Shown: positions 32,962-55,441, counted from the stretch's first letter. The stretch: 64,000 bases of DNA from Pseudobdellovibrionaceae bacterium (GCA_013359135.1 JABWCN010000007.1:1-64000), one strand, 5' to 3'. The notes: generated by a model from the letters alone, not told the origin. A program made the numbers and translations.

Positions 32962-35553
32962 ATGGATAAAATCAATCCGAGACGAATTAAGTTAGTTATC
33001 GCATTCTCTTTCCTTTTGCTGATTAATTTATTCTATACTAATTGTTCTAAGGGCTTTATGGGACAAGACTTCGTAGATCTTAGTTCTGTTGATGGGTCTT
33101 CTCCAAAAAGTACAATTTCCCATGAAAGCTTTATACCGGAAAGTCTTTCAGAGCCTCCTAGAAGTCCTCTTCCAAAATTTCTGAAAAAGACATACACAAC
33201 AGACTCGACAAATACCAACTTTGCTATTGTTTACATAAGAATTCCAAGAGTTAAGGAAACAATGAATTATGTAAATTATCTTGGGGTGTTAAAGCCCAAT
33301 ACAAAAAACTGGGATCTGCTGCAAACTCTTCCTGAAACCTCATTTCGTACGACGGGCATGTCAGGTCCTGGTCAATTGATCTATCGTGACAGAAGCGGTA
33401 ATGAGAAAGTTTTATTTGATTGTATGGCATCTGCAAATTGTTTACCTATGGATCCAACAGTTTCTTTTGATGGATCAAAAGTAATTTTTAGTATTTTAAG
33501 AGGTAAATTTAGTAAAGTCGAAAAGTTTGGTCAAACATTTCCTTACAATGTAATTACGAGTACGGAAGCTCAATTGGCTGAAGTAAATATTGCTACTGGA
33601 GCTATTAAATATCTGACTCATATTCCAGGAACTTACGATACAGGACCAGTTTATCTACCTGATGGCAAAATAATGTTTACCTCAACGAGGTCTAATGAAT
33701 TTGGTTCGAGCCATTTGTTTTACACGCCTATACAACAGTATGTTCTTCAGCTTTGGAAGTCAGATGTTGATGGAAATAATGCAGAGAGAGTTGGTCCTCA
33801 TGATTTAAACGACACGCTTCATCCTTATGTAATGACTGATGGTAGGGTTTTATTTAGCACATGGCAAACTAGGCACTTGCAAGCTTTTGGACAAAATAAT
33901 GGAACTCTCGGAAATCCAGGTACTCAAGATAATAAATTTTGGCTTGCTTCCGTGGATCATACAGGGGGAAGGTGGATGTCTGTTTTAGGTGCCCATGGGC
34001 ATCAATATACTGTAAACGGGAATTTATATGATTTCAGAGCACTTCATTTTGTTGCAGAAACGACTAATAATTGGCTTTGTTCAACAGACTATTATAGAGA
34101 AAATAATTTTGGTTCAGGCCAGATTTTGTGTTGGCAAAAAGAGGATTTAGAAATTGAAGGTCGTGGACCAGAAGAGACAACTCAACTCAGTTTTATTTTT
34201 ATGCCTCGGAATCTTATGCCAATAGCTTCGTGGGCGACAAGTGAAGATAGGTTTTCAGACCAAGTTAATGGTGTCTATGTTGGAAAATTAAGGGATCCTG
34301 TTGCTTTACCAGGTAATCAACTTTTGCTGACTCATATGAAAGGTGTTTGTTCGCGGATACAGGCAGAGTACAGTGTTGAATCTATCCAAACAGAACCTTA
34401 TGGCTGTGATGGAGGCATTTATAAAACGTCTATAATACCAAGTAATTCTCCGGCAGATCTAATTAAAATCGTCGATGATCCTGATTGGCACGAGTTTATG
34501 CCAAGAGTAGCAGAGTCATACTCTTTTGTTTATGGCAAAGAAAAACCTGATCTTCCTAATTTGCAAAGGGATAAAAATAACCGATGTATACTGGCCTCTT
34601 CATCAATGGAAACAGAAACAGAAAACATTGCTCCATACACATTTTTTAACACAAAAGATTGTGCTATGCAGGGGTGTAAGGCTCGAGCGATTCCTATGAG
34701 TAAGGTGAAGGCCATCAGATTCTGGAAAGTTCTGCCTAATAAAGACAAAACTACGTATGTTAGTAAATTAAGAACAGTGTCTGGTAATGAGCAAATTCTC
34801 TTAGGTGATGTACCTTTAAATAAAGATGGATCATTTGCAGCAGAATTGCCATGTGATACTCCTTATATCATGGCTGGTGTTGATGAAGATGGTAATACGA
34901 TTCTCAGAGATCAGGTGGTGCAGTCACTAAGAGCTGGTGAAGTTAGAACATGTAAGGGGTGTCATTTGCACAGTAAACCAGGGCGACCAATAGAGGACAG
35001 TATAGCCTATTCTCAATTTTCTTCTCCATTTCAATTAACCTTGGGTAAAGTTCCTACAATGCAAAAAGGCTGGTGGATCGCCCAATCTCAAGCGCTAACT
35101 GAGCCAGAATATACAAAGGATATTTTACCTATTTTAAATAGAAGATGTGTGTCATGTCATTCAGGTCCTAGCGCACCAAATGGGCTAAGACTTGATATTT
35201 CTGGAACTTCACTTTTTAATTATACAACTCCGGCAATGACTTCAAGTTGGTTTAGAATTGTAGCTGATAGTAATCAGTATTTTGTGGCAAATAAGAGGAG
35301 CTATTTTTCACTTGATCCTAATAACTACAGTTTAGAGAAACCACATTCTTCTGTCTATGTGAATTCGGCATTTGCTATCGAAAGCTTATTCTTATGGAAG
35401 GCTGCTAATAAAAGACTTGATGGCAGAAGTGATTCTTCATATACCAATGACGTAGATTTTGGTGCCGATCATCCAACCGAAATAACTGAGAGTGAACTAA
35501 AGATTTTAAGAGATTGGCTGGATTCGGGAGCCTATGCTAAGTATATTAATTAA
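32962..35553 (+). CDS. Di-heme lipoprotein with hydrazine-synthase-alpha-like beta-propeller
   Basis: An 863-residue lipoprotein (lipobox F-Y-T-N-C at about residue 28). The central region resembles the HZS-alpha middle domain, a WD-type propeller: Y-D-T-G-P-V-Y-L-P-D-G-K-I-M-F-T-S-T-R, then L-W-K-S-D-V-D-G-N-N and L-H-P-Y-V-M-T-D-G-R-V-L-F. Two c-type heme sites follow, C-K-G-C-H near 663 and C-V-S-C-H near 729. The second resembles the C-terminal cytochrome module of PVC/planctomycete-type proteins (L-N-R-R-C-V-S-C-H-S). Hydrazine synthesis itself is very unlikely; a periplasmic oxidoreductase or electron carrier is likely. The substrate is unknown. Confidence 0.7.
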   Translation: MDKINPRRIKLVIAFSFLLLINLFYTNCSKGFMGQDFVDLSSVDGSSPKSTISHESFIPESLSEPPRSPLPKFLKKTYTTDSTNTNFAIVYIRIPRVKETMNYVNYLGVLKPNTKNWDLLQTLPETSFRTTGMSGPGQLIYRDRSGNEKVLFDCMASANCLPMDPTVSFDGSKVIFSILRGKFSKVEKFGQTFPYNVITSTEAQLAEVNIATGAIKYLTHIPGTYDTGPVYLPDGKIMFTSTRSNEFGSSHLFYTPIQQYVLQLWKSDVDGNNAERVGPHDLNDTLHPYVMTDGRVLFSTWQTRHLQAFGQNNGTLGNPGTQDNKFWLASVDHTGGRWMSVLGAHGHQYTVNGNLYDFRALHFVAETTNNWLCSTDYYRENNFGSGQILCWQKEDLEIEGRGPEETTQLSFIFMPRNLMPIASWATSEDRFSDQVNGVYVGKLRDPVALPGNQLLLTHMKGVCSRIQAEYSVESIQTEPYGCDGGIYKTSIIPSNSPADLIKIVDDPDWHEFMPRVAESYSFVYGKEKPDLPNLQRDKNNRCILASSSMETETENIAPYTFFNTKDCAMQGCKARAIPMSKVKAIRFWKVLPNKDKTTYVSKLRTVSGNEQILLGDVPLNKDGSFAAELPCDTPYIMAGVDEDGNTILRDQVVQSLRAGEVRTCKGCHLHSKPGRPIEDSIAYSQFSSPFQLTLGKVPTMQKGWWIAQSQALTEPEYTKDILPILNRRCVSCHSGPSAPNGLRLDISGTSLFNYTTPAMTSSWFRIVADSNQYFVANKRSYFSLDPNNYSLEKPHSSVYVNSAFAIESLFLWKAANKRLDGRSDSSYTNDVDFGADHPTEITESELKILRDWLDSGAYAKYIN

Positions 35554-37948: not shown

Positions 37949-38956
37949 TTACTGAATATAGGGTTTAAATGCTTGTGTGTATTTTTTCGCGCAGGCATTT
38001 GTTGGTCTATCAGAACTTAAGTAGATGCGGTAGTGCCAACGTTTCCATGTCGTATTATAGGATTGAGCTAGTGTTTGCATTGGGATGACAACGTCAAGTA
38101 GGTCTAGACCAATATTGCTACTTATGGAAAGTTCAGCTTGGTTTCTGTAGATACTTGGTATTGCCATAGGAAGAGTTAGTGAGGAACCGATTGTTTTACC
38201 ACTTTGTTCGTTTAATTTGTCATTGCGCATAGTTATCCAGGCAACTTTAGCGCCAGCAAATACAGGGGCAGCAAAGGACAAAGCTTTATTAAACTTCTCG
38301 CTTATTAGAAATAATTCAATGTATTTTTGACCTGTTTGAATATTTTCGAAGTAACCGATCCCCAAAGAAAAATTTAGTAATGCACCAAAAGATTTAAGTC
38401 CAAAGCCTAGACCAATATTAAGAGCAAGCGATCTCCCTCTTACATCTTGATTTGCAATCAAACGCGCCGATTTAAATAGCTCATTTTCAAGAGTTGTAAC
38501 TAAATTTTGTATTTCTTTTGAGCCCAGTTCTTGATAATTAACAATTTCACCATTGTCCTCTACATTTTGATTGGTCTTACCAAAAATTTTATCTTTGAAT
38601 TTTATTACTTTGCCTCTGATGCTAGTAAAACGACCTAACATTTTAGTGCTTTTCTCTCGATCTACTTTTTCAATGATTCCTTGAATTATTGAGTTTCTTC
38701 TTTTGAAGAAAATCTCTTGCGCTTCTGGAGAAAGAGTTAAAAATTCGCTTTTAACAGCTTCATCGCTTGGTAATTCTCTTAGTGTGTAGATAACTCCTCT
38801 AGATGTTGTCATGCGGGTTTTATCAAAGCTAAAAATTTCTTCAGATCTAATGCTTTCTACATCCGAATCTTCAAATCCCATAGAAAGGGTAGTAGATGAG
38901 TATAAAAATAAGCAAAGAATAGTTAATAAAAATTTTTTAGCTAAAGTGAGAGGCAT
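37949..38956 (-). CDS. Exported hypothetical protein (335 aa)
   Basis: A 335-residue protein with a clear signal peptide (residues 1-25, ending T-T-L-S-M) and GGAG five bases before ATG. The N-terminal third is charged and helical. The central part is Gly-rich with alternating residues (L-N-I-G-L-G-F-G-L-K-S-F, N-F-S-L-G-I-G-Y-F), which looks like beta-strands of a membrane-associated or barrel-like region. One late Cys lies in N-A-C-A-K-K-Y. The function is not recognised. It sits directly downstream of the large fusion gene on the same strand (61-base gap) and may be co-transcribed with it. Confidence 0.55.
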   Translation of the reverse strand: MPLTLAKKFLLTILCLFLYSSTTLSMGFEDSDVESIRSEEIFSFDKTRMTTSRGVIYTLRELPSDEAVKSEFLTLSPEAQEIFFKRRNSIIQGIIEKVDREKSTKMLGRFTSIRGKVIKFKDKIFGKTNQNVEDNGEIVNYQELGSKEIQNLVTTLENELFKSARLIANQDVRGRSLALNIGLGFGLKSFGALLNFSLGIGYFENIQTGQKYIELFLISEKFNKALSFAAPVFAGAKVAWITMRNDKLNEQSGKTIGSSLTLPMAIPSIYRNQAELSISSNIGLDLLDVVIPMQTLAQSYNTTWKRWHYRIYLSSDRPTNACAKKYTQAFKPYIQ

Positions 38957-39017: not shown

Positions 39018-42000
39018 TTATCGATAAAATGTCATACATCTATTTGTATTTTGTCTAGTAGATCTGATATTGATTTTGAATTCTTTTTCAAAATTAGCTA
39101 TCAAATCTTTTGATTTTAGTAAGCCACTCAAAGTCTTGGATGTTTTTCCAAGGTCATCTAACCAATTTTGCCTAATATAAAGATTTAATAAATCATATTG
39201 GCCACTAGCCATGATGGCTTTAACAATTTCAGGTGGAATTGGATCTTTAATCCTTGCAGTTAAGGAATAACTTAAGCCAGAAGGTCTGTTAACAACATCT
39301 TTAAAAAAAGATGATATGGAATTCTTGTGTAAAAACCTTGCTGAATTTTTATATGCCACTGGCACAATGTTAACTTCATATCCAGCTTTTGTAAGCTCAT
39401 TGATAAGCCCATGAGAAAATTTTTCTCGAAGAGGACGCGTCTCGTAGATACCTACTGAAACACTGCCCTCAGGGTAGATGACAATGTTATTTACTTCTCC
39501 CTTTTCCAGTTGTGCTAATATTTTATTGATAGGTGTATCAGAGCCTCTGCCTACGGTAATAATATGATCATTCTTGTCTACTTTATCTGCAAGTGATCCA
39601 GCTAGAATTTGATCCGTTGCCATAACTAGTAAATAATTTGGTAAGTTTAATGAACTCATCAATATAGCATCATGAATAGGGTGGCTATGGTTTGGTGTAA
39701 TTATGTTAATCTTTTTAGAGCCAGGGGTAGCCTCTTTGATTAACTTATCTAGTACTTCTTTATTTTCAAGCGATGCCGAAATTCCGAAAGCTTTGGCAAA
39801 TTTTAGAAACAAAGAGTCAATACTTTTGCTTAAAGCTACTGAAGAGTCAGTATACCTAGTGGGTAAAAAGGATTTAAATAAAACCTTTACCATTTCAGGA
39901 GTCATTAAAACAATACCTTTGATGGTTGAGAATAGGCGTTTAGCTTTACTGTCAATTTTTTTAATCTGATCTTTAGCAAGAATTTGATTATGGGTTGCTA
40001 ACTGATAAAGATCAATAAACTCTTTAGCGTTATCAAAAAATGCTCTGTATGCTGTTGTTCTAGTAGGGCCATCTAATGGTTTTCCATATTGTTCAATGCT
40101 TTGCTGATAGAGTTTATAGTTTAATTGTGCCTTGCTAAGTAGCTCATTGAGTTCTTTTCTAGGAATTTTGGGGTATTTTAAAACTAAATCATCCCACAGA
40201 ACTGTTAAAGTTGTATAAGTTCCAACGATAAGATAATTCATTTCAGTTTTAATGAATGAGTCCATATTTTCTTGATATGTTTTTTGTAGTTTTTCCCATT
40301 GTTTAAAACCAATAAAAAGAGCTTCAGCTCGTTTTCGTTTATCCACTTCAGGAAAAGTTTTTTCTGAAATTTCATTTTTAATAACGTGATTTAACTCTTC
40401 TACAGTGTATTCCTTAGAGATGATTTTTAAATCTTTAGCAATGTCGTCACTTTTAAATTTGAATTCACTGCTATACTTATCCAGTTGATCTAATTGAGTT
40501 TCATATTTCTCGAAAGACAAAAGAGACTTTTCAAGAAACTCTTCTTGTCGTTCGACTTCTTTTTGAGTTTCTAGTTCAGAAACTCCATTTAAATTTTCAA
40601 AATAAGTTTTTGGATCTGAAGAACCGATGGCAATTCTTTTACCTACGGATCTTTCAAATTCATCAACGTAATTACTACTAGTTAGTGTTTTAATTGTTCT
40701 TTGAAATTGATTTGGAGAAATAGGAAAAGTGTTTTGCTTAAAAGAGTTTTCAGAACCATTAGCTTTCGAATACAAAACAATTTCTGATTTATATGTAGGT
40801 GAACTTTCAAAATAATTCTTAGAGTTAGTTAAAACATCTAAAGGGAAGGTGGGGCCTTTTTCCTTTTGTGATGAAGGAATATTCAAACCTGCTTTAATTA
40901 AAGAATTTTTAACTAAATCTGCACAATTAAAATGTTTTTTATCATAGCCGATTTTACCTTCTCTAAATAAAGAGTCAATCTGTTCAAAATAGTCTAACAT
41001 TGCCTTTTTTTGAGACGAAGAAATTCCGCTAACACGTACAGAAATATTATTTCTAGCGTAGGAACTACCAAAAGCATCGGAATGTTCCATATTCTCAACT
41101 TGTCTCTGTGTTCCATATAAGTATTCAGCAAGTTCAGTTCTAAAAACGAAGTTTTTCTCAACATCATTTTGTGCTCTTCCATTTAATGTATAGACTATAT
41201 CATCAATCTTAATAGCTATATGACCAAAAGGATTGGTGTCACCAGAAAATATTTTCCCTGTATCGGACTTTCCATAACTTAAAATTATTTCGATATCAGA
41301 TTTAAAAGAGTCATCTAATGCTTTTAGGCTTTCTTTAGCGCCTTTAACACTTGGGCTATTTTCTGTCCCATATCCTTCTGGAATAATACTAGTTCGAGTC
41401 TCAGTATTGAAAACGAAATCCGTGATAGCATTAATATTAAAACTATCTCTGAATTTACCTTGTTGCTCTAGCATTTTTTCTTGAAGATTTTCATCATTAA
41501 GTAATTTATATACATCTGAACCGATATTTTTTTGCTCTTTATTAACTATAGCAAGTCCAAGTTTTTCGAAAAGGAGTGCATTTTCTCTCTCATGGCCTCC
41601 ATAAACATCTAATAATACGATAGGTTTATTTATCGCGAAGCCTTCTGTTGGTGATAAACCACCGCTTTTAGTGATATACAGATCAGATGATTTTACTAAA
41701 TTCAATAAAAGATCATTTTTAACAAATCCATGTATGACAAGATTTACATTAGATGGAAGCTTTGGTTTTAAGTTTGTCAAATTCTTAACGTGATCTTCAT
41801 TCTTTGCACAAATTGCAACTATTTGTACAGGTTCTTTGATCTTTGATGAGATACTTTTAACAATTGTTGGGAAATCACCTACTCCCTCGCCACCACTGGC
41901 GATGACAATGGTTTTTATTTCTGGATTAAGTCCTTGTTCTCTTAAAAAAGAATCCTTATCAACTGGTTCAAAAACCTTGGGGTTTACAGGTAGCCCAGTA

Positions 42001-42611
42001 GTTGCAACCTTCTCAGGATCAAGTCCAGTTTCTTTCCATTGCCTTTCAAGTTCAGGCATTCCAAGAAAAGTTTTTTCAATATTCTGTGAAATACGTGGGA
42101 AATAACCTTTGAAGTAATCGGTATGTAACCAAGCAATTGGTGTATTTCTTAAAGCTCCTTGTGATCTTAACTTAATCATTGTTTCTGCTGAACCGTAGTG
42201 AGTTGCAATGATATGAGTTGGCTTGACTTCTTCTAGATATTTTAAAACATCTTTTTCTGAGTAGCTATTAGAGATATTATCAAAGTAATTATGATTGAGC
42301 ATAGCACTTTTCATTTTCCCTTTAAATAATTTATCAAAATAGTTTGGTGAGTTTTTAACTACCAGCCAAAATAGTTTTTCATCAGTGTAATTTTTCCACT
42401 TTGGCATAAAATCTCTGATGTTCTTTAGTTCAACAATAGTATCAGGGTCTTTTATTTTGATGTTCTGTTCAATTGCGCGCGCAGCGCTAAGATGTCCCAT
42501 TCCTATTGAAGAGTAAAAAATAACTACTTTTTTGCTTTCAGCAAAAGATATTGAGCTAAATACTGAGATGAAGAGAAATAGGGCGAAAATGAACTTCTTT
42601 AATTGACACAT
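39018..42611 (-). CDS. Exported fusion: MGDG-synthase-like glycosyltransferase, permuted papain-fold domain, PlsC-like acyltransferase
   Basis: A 1197-residue protein with a signal peptide (cut after I-S-F-A, residue 24). Residues 27-400 resemble GT28 diacylglycerol glucosyl/galactosyltransferases: S-S-I-G-M-G-H near 37, A-S-G-G-E-G and I-T-K-S-G-G-L-S-P-T-E-G near 318. Residues about 430-590 have F-G-H-I-A-I (His463) and H-F-N-C-A-D-L (Cys563), the His-before-Cys order of permuted papain folds, reminiscent of DUF4105/Lnb. About 640-960 is a helical linker. About 965-1160 resembles lysophosphatidate acyltransferases, with N-H-S-H-P-I-H-D near 974 (spacing H-x5-D, not the usual H-x4-D) and P-E-G-S near 1048. 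The mix of lipid-active modules in one exported chain is unusual. The function is inferred; it could modify host or prey lipids outside the cytosol. Confidence 0.7.
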   Translation of the reverse strand: MCQLKKFIFALFLFISVFSSISFAESKKVVIFYSSIGMGHLSAARAIEQNIKIKDPDTIVELKNIRDFMPKWKNYTDEKLFWLVVKNSPNYFDKLFKGKMKSAMLNHNYFDNISNSYSEKDVLKYLEEVKPTHIIATHYGSAETMIKLRSQGALRNTPIAWLHTDYFKGYFPRISQNIEKTFLGMPELERQWKETGLDPEKVATTGLPVNPKVFEPVDKDSFLREQGLNPEIKTIVIASGGEGVGDFPTIVKSISSKIKEPVQIVAICAKNEDHVKNLTNLKPKLPSNVNLVIHGFVKNDLLLNLVKSSDLYITKSGGLSPTEGFAINKPIVLLDVYGGHERENALLFEKLGLAIVNKEQKNIGSDVYKLLNDENLQEKMLEQQGKFRDSFNINAITDFVFNTETRTSIIPEGYGTENSPSVKGAKESLKALDDSFKSDIEIILSYGKSDTGKIFSGDTNPFGHIAIKIDDIVYTLNGRAQNDVEKNFVFRTELAEYLYGTQRQVENMEHSDAFGSSYARNNISVRVSGISSSQKKAMLDYFEQIDSLFREGKIGYDKKHFNCADLVKNSLIKAGLNIPSSQKEKGPTFPLDVLTNSKNYFESSPTYKSEIVLYSKANGSENSFKQNTFPISPNQFQRTIKTLTSSNYVDEFERSVGKRIAIGSSDPKTYFENLNGVSELETQKEVERQEEFLEKSLLSFEKYETQLDQLDKYSSEFKFKSDDIAKDLKIISKEYTVEELNHVIKNEISEKTFPEVDKRKRAEALFIGFKQWEKLQKTYQENMDSFIKTEMNYLIVGTYTTLTVLWDDLVLKYPKIPRKELNELLSKAQLNYKLYQQSIEQYGKPLDGPTRTTAYRAFFDNAKEFIDLYQLATHNQILAKDQIKKIDSKAKRLFSTIKGIVLMTPEMVKVLFKSFLPTRYTDSSVALSKSIDSLFLKFAKAFGISASLENKEVLDKLIKEATPGSKKINIITPNHSHPIHDAILMSSLNLPNYLLVMATDQILAGSLADKVDKNDHIITVGRGSDTPINKILAQLEKGEVNNIVIYPEGSVSVGIYETRPLREKFSHGLINELTKAGYEVNIVPVAYKNSARFLHKNSISSFFKDVVNRPSGLSYSLTARIKDPIPPEIVKAIMASGQYDLLNLYIRQNWLDDLGKTSKTLSGLLKSKDLIANFEKEFKINIRSTRQNTNRCMTFYR

Positions 42612-46965: not shown

Positions 46966-48189
46966 ATGGTATTCCAATCAGGTAAATTTCTTATATTTAT
47001 AATTATAACATTTTTACTTTGTTTACCAATGCATTCAAAATCCGATCAAATCTACTGTAAACAGTTTTACAATCTAAAAATTGAAGAAAAATCAAAAGCA
47101 ACGGAGATATCAAAAAAAACTCGTAAGTCATTCAATGATTCCATAGAAAATCAAGTATACAAACTAGCACTTCAATTAATAAAATATTATAAAAATACTG
47201 GAAATGGTAAAATCCCTGTTCAATTGACAGCTAAAGAAGCCACTGAACTTAAAAACCGATTTGCTAAGAACGAAACAAATGATTTATTTTATTTTGCTCT
47301 TATTGGTCTAGCCCGTGAATTTTCAATTAACTATTCAGACAAAGTTGGAGCGGTTGCAATTACGAGTACAGGTAATATATATTTTGGATTCAACATAGAA
47401 TTTCCAGGACTTGATGTTTCAAGTTTTATTCATGCAGAGCAGGCTGCAGTTGCAAATGCCCGTATTCCTAGAGCTGATCGTGCTATGGAAAAACAAATTG
47501 ATTTTCTTTATGTTTCAGCAGCTCCTTGTGGATCTTGTCGGCAAATGTTGCTTAATGCAAATGGAAATGTAAACAAAATCAATATTAGATTTCCTTATAA
47601 TGGACAAATCATAGATGAAAAATTGCCACATTTAATTAAACTTCCATTCGGTGATTTAGATCTGAATCTTTTTGATATTCGTGATGTCAGCTTTTCGGGG
47701 ATCAAAAAAAGAAAGGTTCTACAAGACGGATTTCTTTCAAAACGTTTGAGCGATGTATCGGCTCCAACCCCTATTCAGGAAGCTGCGATTCGTGCTGCGC
47801 TACAAGGTTATACAAACAAGGATATAGAATCCTATCGTGGGACGGCTGTTGAATTAATTTCCGAAACAGGTAGGTCGGAAATCTTTGCTGGAAGTTATAT
47901 TGAAAGTACCGGCGCAAACCATTCTATCCGCCCTATCACTCAAATACTTGTTGGATTGTTAGATGCGGGTTATAATTTCAGAGAGACATCCCCAGTGATG
48001 AACGGACATGGCGAGCGTATCGTTGATGCTCGTGCTGTTATGGTTCAAGGAGACGACTATCCATTTTCAAGTCTAAGCGAAACCGTCTTATTCGTTAAAA
48101 AAATAGCTGGTTCCTTCACTAACCGTGTTGAGCTTCTTACCTACGAAAGATATAGCATAAAATCCTCAGGCAACAAGGATAAGGACTAA
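46966..48189 (+). CDS. Exported two-domain cytidine deaminase-like protein
   Basis: A 407-residue protein with a signal peptide (residues 1-26) followed by Q-I-Y-C-K-Q-F-Y. The first catalytic domain has the intact zinc site of cytidine deaminases: H156-A-E158 and P-C188-G-S-C191-R-Q. The C-terminal part (F-G-D-L-D-L-N-L-F then P-I-Q-E-A-A-I-R-A-A-L and A-G-S-Y-I-E-S) resembles the second, inactive domain of the E. coli-type homodimeric enzyme. Normal cytidine deaminase is cytosolic; export is unusual. GGAG precedes ATG by five bases. It overlaps the next gene in a TAATG. Confidence 0.8.
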   Translation: MVFQSGKFLIFIIITFLLCLPMHSKSDQIYCKQFYNLKIEEKSKATEISKKTRKSFNDSIENQVYKLALQLIKYYKNTGNGKIPVQLTAKEATELKNRFAKNETNDLFYFALIGLAREFSINYSDKVGAVAITSTGNIYFGFNIEFPGLDVSSFIHAEQAAVANARIPRADRAMEKQIDFLYVSAAPCGSCRQMLLNANGNVNKINIRFPYNGQIIDEKLPHLIKLPFGDLDLNLFDIRDVSFSGIKKRKVLQDGFLSKRLSDVSAPTPIQEAAIRAALQGYTNKDIESYRGTAVELISETGRSEIFAGSYIESTGANHSIRPITQILVGLLDAGYNFRETSPVMNGHGERIVDARAVMVQGDDYPFSSLSETVLFVKKIAGSFTNRVELLTYERYSIKSSGNKDKD

Positions 48190-52840: not shown

Positions 52841-54300
52841 CTAAAAAAAATAGAAATAAAGTCTCACTTTTTTTTGTATCATTAGTGGTAATTTGTACTA
52901 TTAGATTTGAGGCTATTTGTTCAGAGATAGGGAGCGTAGATCTTTCAAAAAGCGTCAAAGTGATTAATGTGTTTAGTGGGGCACCACAAGCTATTGACGG
53001 CCCTTCTAAGTATGCAGGATTTGGGGATATAGCTGCAAATTTAGTTGCCTCGAGTGAGATTAAATCTCGTTATCCTGATAAGAAAGTTAGGTTAATCGTT
53101 ACATCGGCGTTTAATCGCATAGATCCACTTATTCCAACTACGGATGAAATAGTTAAGATTATGGCACCTCAACTTGATCCTTCAAAAAAAGGAGTTGTTC
53201 AAATGTATGGGGATGTGGAGGTCGTGTTTATTCCCGTGGATTTTAAAAAAGCATTACAAATTAATTCTATGGTTTCCTACTATTGGGAATTGTTTAAGTT
53301 GAAGCTTGTATTACCATCCCATATTCCAACATCAGATTTAAATTTAAATTTTTCCGCTTATCCTGGGGGTGAGCAAGTTTTAAGAATGAACACTAAGGTT
53401 GCAATAGGTGTCGAAGAACACTATGGAGACTCTAATTTAGTTAATCTTTTATATCCTTTTAAATCAACGAGAACTGCCTCTGTAACAGAGTTAACATCGG
53501 GACCATTTTCTACAGGTTTCATGTTAACTTTCAATCGTCCTAATAGTGAACAGAGTATAAATCTGATCCGCGAATGGAGTGAATCAAACGGTAAGGTCGT
53601 TCCCAGTGGAGATTTTTTACCACAAATAGCTTATTCTGCGGGGTGGCGATCTATACAGATATATATCGATGCACTCTCAAAATTAGAGCAACCGGAGAAA
53701 CCAATAGTTCTTTTTGTAAAAGATTTTCCTGAGTTAAATTTTAAAAATTTACCGAAATCAGTTACTGTTATTCCTGTAAAAGGTTTGCCTCACGAAGTTA
53801 TGAGTGCCTTAATACAAGAATCTTATTTCTCTCCTTTAGTTACTGGTGATATTTCATATGGCCAAGCTCTTAGCAGCGTAAGATCTGAAGGTAAATCTTT
53901 GATTTATGAAAGTCCTGAGTGGAAAGTAGAAAGTGCTTTTGGAACAAAGAAACTAATTGCTAAAGATTTAAAAGTAGATGCTTCACTGTTAGATCCGATG
54001 TTTATGTTAACTGAGGAACTAGATACTTTAGATTTGAAAGGTCTTAACGAGAAAGCCTCAAAATTAGCTATTTTCTTGAATGACAAAGAACTTCAAATAA
54101 AAATTTCTAAGAGTATTATTAACCGTCAAGAAAGTTGGGATATTATTGGGAATATATTTAAAATTGCAAATCATTTGATTGATGATATAGGGACACAGGG
54201 TTTAAAAAATATAAAAGGGAGTAGGTCAAGAGATAGTTTAAAGTCTAATATTCAATTGTTATTCGGTAAAGGTGCACAATGTGTTAAATACTATGATTAA
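52816..54300 (+). CDS. Exported protein, possibly GT-B-like glycosyltransferase
   Basis: A 494-residue protein with an N-terminal hydrophobic segment (about residues 16-36) that looks like a signal peptide or anchor. F-S-G-A-P-Q-A-I-D-G-P-S-K-Y-A-G and F-G-D-I-A-A-N-L-V-A-S-S-E-I resemble the N-terminal nucleotide-fold part of GT-B enzymes. F-S-P-L-V-T-G-D-I-S-Y-G-Q-A-L later resembles a sugar-nucleotide-binding half. No signature residue proves this. It starts inside the 987-residue gene (25-base overlap) and overlaps the OlsB-like gene by 29 bases. A second glycosyltransferase-like exported enzyme would fit the fusion protein at 39-42.6 kb. Confidence 0.45.
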   Translation: MFTILFTLTKKNRNKVSLFFVSLVVICTIRFEAICSEIGSVDLSKSVKVINVFSGAPQAIDGPSKYAGFGDIAANLVASSEIKSRYPDKKVRLIVTSAFNRIDPLIPTTDEIVKIMAPQLDPSKKGVVQMYGDVEVVFIPVDFKKALQINSMVSYYWELFKLKLVLPSHIPTSDLNLNFSAYPGGEQVLRMNTKVAIGVEEHYGDSNLVNLLYPFKSTRTASVTELTSGPFSTGFMLTFNRPNSEQSINLIREWSESNGKVVPSGDFLPQIAYSAGWRSIQIYIDALSKLEQPEKPIVLFVKDFPELNFKNLPKSVTVIPVKGLPHEVMSALIQESYFSPLVTGDISYGQALSSVRSEGKSLIYESPEWKVESAFGTKKLIAKDLKVDASLLDPMFMLTEELDTLDLKGLNEKASKLAIFLNDKELQIKISKSIINRQESWDIIGNIFKIANHLIDDIGTQGLKNIKGSRSRDSLKSNIQLLFGKGAQCVKYYD

Positions 54301-55441
54301 ATTTTTTAGAAAAAAAATTTATTATTTTGGCTTTTTAATGATCTTAGCTGTTGAGGTTAAAGCTAGTTGTCTCAATAAATATACAGATACAAAAGCTTCT
54401 GTTGCTAAGATGAATCGAGACGAATTACCATCTGTTTTAAAAGATTTAATTCGAGATGGAGCTGTTTTTAATCAGGATGATTTAGTCAGAAACGATCATT
54501 TTACTAAATCTATGGAAAATGTAAAAAAGATAGATAATCAGAAGAAAATTCAAAAAGAACTTTCAAAGTTTAAACCCATACTAGAGATTAAAAACCATCA
54601 TAATGACATTCAGATATACTTAGTTAATGGATATGAAATACCTGAAACTTTAAAAAAAGTTGGTGAGTTAAGAGAATTAAATTTTAGGAGAGTTTTTGAA
54701 GGAAGTGGGAAAAAAACTGATTTGGACTCGTTTGATCTTAGTTATAAGCATCTTGTTATTGTAGAGAGTAAATCAAAAAATATTTTAGGTTCTTGTCGAT
54801 TAGGTTTAGGCAACCAACTAGTTCGGTCAAATTATAATAATTTTTATGCAAGAAGTTTTTTTAATTTTGATAGTATTCCCTCTGAGGTAATGGAGAGAAC
54901 AGTTGAAGTTGGAAGAGTTTTTGTAAACGTTGCAACGGGAGGGCCTCAAGTAATTAGAGCTCTTGATGCGATCTGGAGAGGAATAGGAACATTTCTTAGC
55001 GACAATCCTAGATATAGGTACTTGTTAAGTACATTAAGTATTTCACAGGCTTATTCTAATATTTCTAAGGCTACTATTATGAGTTACTTTGAAAAAAAAC
55101 ATCGTTCTTTATTTTTTGAAAAAATTATTTCTTTAAATCCTGTTCAAATTCGAGATTCGACTAAAAAATATGGTGAAATTCTTGCCTCAAAAGCAAACTC
55201 AATAAAAGAACTTAATAGCTTAATCGTTGGGCTTGATGGAATATCAGTCCCACCATTGTATATTGCTAATTCCAAATTAGGTGCTGAGTTTTTAGGGTTT
55301 AATTCAGATTCTGATTTTAATACGATTGATGGTCTGTTACTCATAGATATATCAAAGGTTTCTAAGGATGAAAAAGTTAGGAAAGAACTAATTAAGTACT
55401 TAGGTAAAGGGAGTGAAGAATATTTAGAATATCAAAACTAG
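54272..55441 (+). CDS. Exported OlsB-like GNAT acyltransferase
   Basis: A 389-residue protein with a signal peptide (about residues 15-31, ending V-K-A) followed by S-C-L-N-K-Y-T-D, the Cys-x3-Tyr mature start. The domain resembles the Acetyltransf_5/OlsB family that adds an acyl chain to ornithine to make ornithine lipids: G-E-L-R-E-L-N-F-R-R-V-F, D-S-F-D-L-S-Y-K-H-L-V-I-V, G-S-C-R-L-G, F-Y-A-R-S-F-F-N-F and V-E-V-G-R-V-F-V. OlsB is cytosolic in other bacteria, so export is odd. It ends the three-gene operon. Confidence 0.7.
   Translation: MHNVLNTMIKFFRKKIYYFGFLMILAVEVKASCLNKYTDTKASVAKMNRDELPSVLKDLIRDGAVFNQDDLVRNDHFTKSMENVKKIDNQKKIQKELSKFKPILEIKNHHNDIQIYLVNGYEIPETLKKVGELRELNFRRVFEGSGKKTDLDSFDLSYKHLVIVESKSKNILGSCRLGLGNQLVRSNYNNFYARSFFNFDSIPSEVMERTVEVGRVFVNVATGGPQVIRALDAIWRGIGTFLSDNPRYRYLLSTLSISQAYSNISKATIMSYFEKKHRSLFFEKIISLNPVQIRDSTKKYGEILASKANSIKELNSLIVGLDGISVPPLYIANSKLGAEFLGFNSDSDFNTIDGLLLIDISKVSKDEKVRKELIKYLGKGSEEYLEYQN

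Follow-up and report, generated by a model that had tools for sequence, protein, structure and literature searches.

An exported protein of Bdellovibrionota that joins three putative lipid-enzyme modules

Enzymes that build lipids are tied to the cytosol by their donors. The described proteins closest to the one reported here are MGDG synthases and processive diacylglycerol glucosyltransferases of the GT28 type, such as MGD1; PlsC and other lysophospholipid acyltransferases (LPLAT), whose canonical catalytic motif is H-x4-D; and permuted NlpC/P60 enzymes, such as the lipoprotein N-acyltransferase Lnb (DUF4105), LnsA, LRAT and Tox-Act1/TseH. Permuted NlpC/P60 enzymes act on lipids and draw acyl groups from phospholipids (PMC7387801, PMC12994826); LnsA and Lnb do so outside the cytosol (PMC7387801, PMC12994826), and Tox-Act1 is a phospholipase (PMC12994826). 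Here we describe an open reading frame (ORF) in a 64,000-nucleotide stretch of DNA from a Pseudobdellovibrionaceae bacterium (GCA_013359135.1, JABWCN010000007.1:1-64000; hereafter the window) that joins a module resembling each of these behind a predicted signal peptide. We favour, with moderate confidence, the reading that the protein is exported and remodels lipids: working in or on a cell of prey or host, its three parts would add a sugar to a membrane lipid and acylate it anew. The protein is laid out as follows.

39018..42611, minus strand: predicted three-module exported enzyme, 1197 amino acids, ATG start, whole ORF with stop
42540..42611, minus strand: putative Sec signal peptide, residues 1-24 (MCQLKKFIFALFLFISVFSSISFA), called by heuristic; present in the Bdellovibrionota relatives examined, in lipobox form in L023
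41400..42536, minus strand: GT-B glycosyltransferase (GT) module, residues 26-404, with GMGH40, SGGLSPTE 316-323 and GGHE 338-341 (Pfam, NCBIfam, Foldseek, motifs)
40542..41339, minus strand: permuted papain-like (Lnb_N/NlpC-P60-like) module, residues 425-690, with His464, Asn477 and Cys563 (alignment, model, profiles)
39825..40541, minus strand: mostly helical linker, residues 691-929 (secondary structure of the predicted model)
39072..39824, minus strand: PlsC-like acyltransferase module, residues 930-1180, with N974-H975...D981 and YPEGS 1046-1050 (Pfam, motifs, fold matches)
39021..39071, minus strand: tail of low model confidence, residues 1181-1197, ending C1192-x-x-F-Y (motif)

The ORF is taken as a real gene because full-length homologues at 36-53% identity exist within the genus as well as in other families; the gene is thus conserved, and it is present as a single copy in the window's genome. 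In what follows, G numbers denote genomes or species and L numbers loci of relatives (L003 and L008, for example, both lie in G003).

Profiles and predicted fold firmly assign the first module as a galactolipid-synthase-type GT-B domain. It scores over the Pfam cut-off for MGDG_synth (E 1.2e-12) and for Glyco_tran_28_C, and it matches the NCBIfam model PRK13609 (diglucosyldiacylglycerol synthase) at E 1.9e-35, yet far under that model's cut-off. A Foldseek search of the Protein Data Bank (PDB) returned Arabidopsis MGD1 as the top match (4x1t, 4wyi; target TM 0.79), and the module shares with MGDG synthases and processive diacylglycerol glucosyltransferases the GT-B fold, the catalytic histidine of G-x-G-H and the donor-site pattern. 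This histidine is retained in six of the seven members where it is readable. Unlike MGD1, the module is predicted to be exported and makes up only one portion of a longer protein.

The second module is assigned, with moderate confidence, as a permuted papain-like domain related to Lnb_N. Its His464, Asn477 and Cys563 are invariant in 33 aligned homologues, and the papain His/Cys pair is lost in L003 only. In the predicted model of the module (pLDDT 86, pTM 0.87) NPFGH opens a strand and Cys563 opens a helix, and these positions, together with the order of histidine before cysteine, fit a permuted NlpC/P60 domain; Lnb, LnsA, LRAT and Tox-Act1 show the same order and the same NPFGH...N...NC pattern. 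Lnb_N exceeds the Pfam cut-off in the divergent member L055 and two of 24 members match at E<1. The module differs from these enzymes in that the window's own papain segment has no Pfam match, and hhalign gave 85% to an exported Lnb_N-like neighbour family and 4.9%, a weak value, to canonical Lnb_N. The assignment is graded moderate because a Foldseek search of the PDB with the papain model matched no solved structure. Profile searches of the PDB with the papain and PlsC alignments likewise gave chance-level matches only.

The third module is called PlsC-like only, because its motif is H-x5-D instead of H-x4-D; the spacing H975-x5-D981 is identical in all seven aligned members. The segment alone is over the cut-off for Pfam Acyltransferase (E 5.7e-6), as which five of seven members are matched, it carries the YPEGS and P-V-x-Y blocks of PlsC and LPLAT enzymes, and its structural matches include a Mimivirus acyltransferase. 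Unlike those enzymes it is, by prediction, exported, and it has no link to the cytosolic Pls pathway.

A first-pass annotation of the window had proposed a single signal-peptide protein at 39018-42611 with a GT28/MGDG-synthase-like, a papain-like and a PlsC-like module, and this observation is confirmed. Its papain residues were given as His463 and Cys563; the cysteine stands, and the histidine is residue 464. Of the domain and fold checks that it suggested, those on the GT module (Pfam, MGD1 fold) and the PlsC-like module (Pfam, Mimivirus acyltransferase) came out positive, and those on the papain segment gave no Pfam or PDB match. Homologues with the same module order were found, as described below. 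It had also stated that no protein with this arrangement was known, and our search of the open literature, beyond whose reach most subscription papers lie, found no described GT, papain-like and PlsC-like combination.

Two divergent copies of the enzyme in G003 provide insight into how the modules may work. L003 and L008 lie 0.7 kb apart (G003:C6:57361-65131) and are regarded as old paralogues because the tree described below puts them in different subgroups. L003 has intact GT residues and carries H464Q and C563S in the papain module and H975Q in the PlsC-like module; L008 carries H40N and H340Y in the GT module and has intact papain and PlsC residues. Since these losses are complementary, both groups of sites, GT and papain/PlsC, are likely to be catalytic. 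The simplest reading is a division of labour, with sugar transfer in L003 and acyl chemistry in L008, which would imply true catalysis by all three modules, the papain and PlsC-like parts acting as one function.

Signal peptides were called with a heuristic (hydrophobic stretch, flanking charge, cleavage site) and not by SignalP. By this measure the export proposed in the first-pass annotation is conserved in Bdellovibrionota: wherever the N-terminus of a GT+papain relative is readable, a hydrophobic stretch lies close to the first GT strand. Its N side is nearly always positive, and behind it come little charge and usually a typical cleavage site (A-x-A or W-A), or a lipobox in L023. In relatives outside the phylum, in contrast, the GT either forms the very start of the protein or is preceded by an anchor followed by a net charge of +4 to +6; by the positive-inside rule, such an anchor would leave the enzyme facing the cytosol. 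By this measure none of these 29 relatives is exported. A maximum-likelihood tree, rooted at its midpoint, separates 12 exported from 29 non-exported rows by one branch with 98% support. By the N-termini and this branch, export belongs to the Bdellovibrionota side of the tree, together with the PlsC-like part and the tail. A change of state from cytosolic to exported is likely, though with a midpoint root the older state is not proven.

Other phyla widely carry the GT+papain core, but without a signal peptide or with a cytosol-facing anchor. These cytosolic proteins (Aromatoleum, Zoogloea, Synergistaceae and others) have the same first two modules, about 650 amino acids and about 32-39% identity; unlike the window's enzyme, they show no signal peptide, PlsC part or C-x-x-F-Y tail. 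Their genes adjoin TetR regulators, ABC1-type kinases and apparent RND efflux genes (the last read by eye). The best explanation, judged from these comparisons, is that the window's enzyme descends from a cytosolic GT+papain enzyme of membrane lipids or goes back with it to a common ancestor. The cytosolic forms (L025-L061) span many phyla and are nearly identical in Zoogloea and Aromatoleum; many of their hosts are, by record names, bacteria of polluted sites.

Among the genomes searched, the three-part form occurs in Bdellovibrionota only, in several families. Within the order, 15 of 141 genomes encode some module of the enzyme and eight of these the three-part form, a count that includes G097 (split over two contigs) and G004 (cut by a contig end). 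Relatives are present in all five other species of the genus examined and are sporadic elsewhere in the order; phylum-wide, 31 of 369 genomes have a match. A single-sequence scan of genome contigs found no relatives, but an alignment-based scan did, the closest being from Bdellovibrionaceae/Bdellovibrionales.

In relatives' loci the enzyme adjoins two exported proteins, a GH1 glycosidase (E 6.5e-57) and a member of PF04734, the neutral ceramidase family (E 2e-24). Both partners are encoded in all eight three-part genomes of the order and adjoin the enzyme in seven; in the window's genome the pair lies together on another contig (L133). PF04734 occurs in 11 of the 141 genomes, in 8/8 with the three-part enzyme and 3/133 others (Fisher p 5e-11, a value that is too small because the eight genomes are related, five belonging to one genus, though they span three families of the order). 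The catalytic acid motifs of GH1, read by eye, are kept. The PF04734 partner keeps the metal-site motif HTHSGPGG (HxH), and the stretch expected for the catalytic serine reads GDIGP or similar; ceramidase was rejected as a firm function for this neighbour, since the serine motif looks lost.

Further exported cousins occur elsewhere in the phylum. A GT of this type is exported alone (L162, L163, L164), joined to PLD domains (L012, L164, L165) or, weakly, to a TPR-like stretch (L167), and in another Bdellovibrionota family it is fused to two U-boxes (L180:958-3168, minus strand; E 3.6e-29). As the contig of L180 is 250 kb long, it is hardly a eukaryotic contaminant. U-boxes work with ubiquitin, which bacteria of this kind are not known to possess, so the L180 protein probably acts inside a eukaryotic cell. 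Exported PlsC-like segments are likewise found with other N-terminal parts, one cytidylyltransferase-like (L173) and one a PNK3P phosphatase (L015).

Taken together, the domains, the conserved export, the co-occurrence of PF04734 and GH1, the losses in L003 and L008 and the PLD and U-box cousins support an exported enzyme that remodels membrane lipids in or on another cell. In such a scheme the GT would transfer sugar from an NDP-sugar onto a lipid acceptor, Cys563 would take a fatty acid off a lipid as an acyl-thioester and then pass it on or hydrolyse it, and the PlsC-like domain would acylate or transacylate the lyso product, so that a single protein could make an acylated glycolipid from a membrane lipid. 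The exported GH1 and ceramidase-like proteins would trim the sugar and amide-linked groups of a like glycolipid. UDP-sugars are not known from the periplasm, and for this reason the GT step is placed, less certainly, in or on a cell of prey or host with accessible cytosol. The first-pass annotation had reasoned that the donors of all three families are unavailable in the periplasm. This remains sound for the GT, and for the PlsC-like part if that depends on acyl-coenzyme A (CoA) or acyl-acyl carrier protein; it does not for the papain module, which could function in the periplasm because permuted NlpC/P60 enzymes use phospholipid acyl groups. Its proposal that export points to another compartment is backed by the cytosolic sister proteins, the exported gene neighbourhood and the exported GT with U-boxes, and its interpretation as a whole is partly supported.

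Several observations weigh against action in or on another cell. The papain model found no counterpart in the PDB, no outer-membrane transport system was identified, and predatory status is not established for the window's genus. The PlsC part and the partner genes are missing in G068 and G075, relatives in another genus, and the PF04734 partner presumably lacks the canonical catalytic serine. The U-box fusion sits in another family: no U-box was found in the window's enzyme or in any of the 141 genomes of its order, a search in which control genomes gave no positive either. A eukaryotic host for the window's genus is not claimed, given this absence.

The main rival is that the enzyme remodels the bacterium's own periplasmic or outer-membrane lipids, the GT using another donor or no longer mattering. 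By analogy with LnsA and Lnb, which take their acyl groups from phospholipids and work outside the cytosol (PMC7387801, PMC12994826), this is reasonable, if on balance rather unlikely. No cytosolic donor would be needed by the papain part, nor by a PlsC part that, like transacylases, is independent of CoA, and the PlsC motif is the non-canonical H-x5-D; a lipobox in L023 would mean membrane anchoring, and the GH1 and PF04734 partners are likewise simply exported. However, retention of the GT catalytic histidine in six of seven members and the existence of exported GT-only relatives suggest that selection maintains the GT outside the cytosol. The patchy distribution is also unlike that of an envelope housekeeping gene, and the L180 fusion to U-boxes likewise weighs against a role confined to the own envelope.

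Alternatively, the protein may be a digestive or scavenging exoenzyme, in which the papain and PlsC-like parts deacylate prey lipids alongside the GH1 and ceramidase-like hydrolases and the GT serves to bind glycolipid. A GT that only binds need not retain its active-site histidine and donor site, which are intact in the members other than L008, and L003 retains the GT residues only. We consider this reading improbable, even though the neighbours are hydrolases (GH1 and PF04734, and in L055 also an alpha/beta hydrolase and a C92 papain), L008 has lost GT residues and kept the rest, and one permuted NlpC/P60 enzyme, Tox-Act1, is a phospholipase (PMC12994826). It is very improbable that the N-terminal segment serves as an anchor with the enzyme on the cytosolic side, as in the cytosolic or anchored relatives elsewhere with their +4 to +6 charges on the inner side, given the positive N side, the low charge behind it, the A-x-A/W-A cleavage sites and the one lipobox in Bdellovibrionota, where the partner proteins are exported too.

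Beyond remodelling by this one enzyme, a wider and more tentative possibility is that Bdellovibrionota have a modular class of exported lipid-synthesis enzymes that would be delivered into prey or host and use its UDP-sugars and acyl donors for new glycolipids, with terminal C-x-x-[FL]-[FY] as a common export or anchoring mark. Such a class, kin to cytosolic enzymes elsewhere, would span GTs with papain, PlsC, PLD or U-box parts and PlsC-like segments with other catalytic parts. If this is true, some bacteria build lipids inside other cells and do not merely digest them. It would also open to experiment the changes that Bdellovibrionota make to the membranes of prey or host, for which the cytosolic sister proteins are a natural control.

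The C-terminal end reads C-x-x-F-Y in seven of eight members and C-x-x-L-F in the other, and a similar motif stands at the C-terminus or directly behind the signal peptide in several nearby exported proteins; five exported proteins with a tail-like motif lie in a 16-kb stretch of L055. In the window, which is the place where the motif was first noticed, terminal C-x-x-[FL]-[FY] occurs four times at C-termini (0.23 expected) and five times at N-termini (0.5 expected). Among exported proteins in about 0.69 Mb sampled from elsewhere in the genome the loose motif was not enriched; the stricter C..[FLIY]Y, picked after the matches had been viewed, was found five times against 1.1 expected (p 0.002), and the terminal motif was not found in the G068 sample. 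With modest support outside the window and none in this sample, the motif was dropped from a genome-wide tag to a lead, and as such it may be an anchoring or sorting signal.

Exported proteins with a terminal C-x-x-[FLYK]-[FY] motif cluster at 30005-55441 of the window (genes 30005, 35764, 39018, 46966, 48189, 49877, 52816 and 54272). Three neighbours of the enzyme are listed here.

37949..38956, minus strand: exported 335-amino-acid protein downstream of the enzyme, with a loose C-terminal tail motif; L002/L019 and L055 have lookalikes close to the enzyme (by eye, unscored)
46966..48189, plus strand: exported protein that carries two domains of the cytidine/dCMP deaminase type (Pfam 1e-11) and N-terminal CKQFY, which may be linked to the exported set
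54272..55441, plus strand: exported GNAT protein, Acetyltransf_5 (E 9.5e-14), with N-terminal C-x-x-K-Y, putatively linked to the exported set

Cytidine/dCMP deaminases are normally cytosolic enzymes, and the Acetyltransf_5 family is otherwise familiar from cytosolic acyltransferases. Near a three-part enzyme, an exported protein (L024:1901-3733, plus strand) matches SelO (E 5e-6), a family of ATP-using AMPylases. The protein at L074:2937-5180 (plus strand) combines MoxR/AAA-type ATPase domains with a putative signal peptide and bears the terminal motif at both ends. At 32962-35553 the window also encodes a protein of 863 amino acids that matches the middle domain of hydrazine synthase alpha (E 3e-11) and has a beta-propeller repeat.
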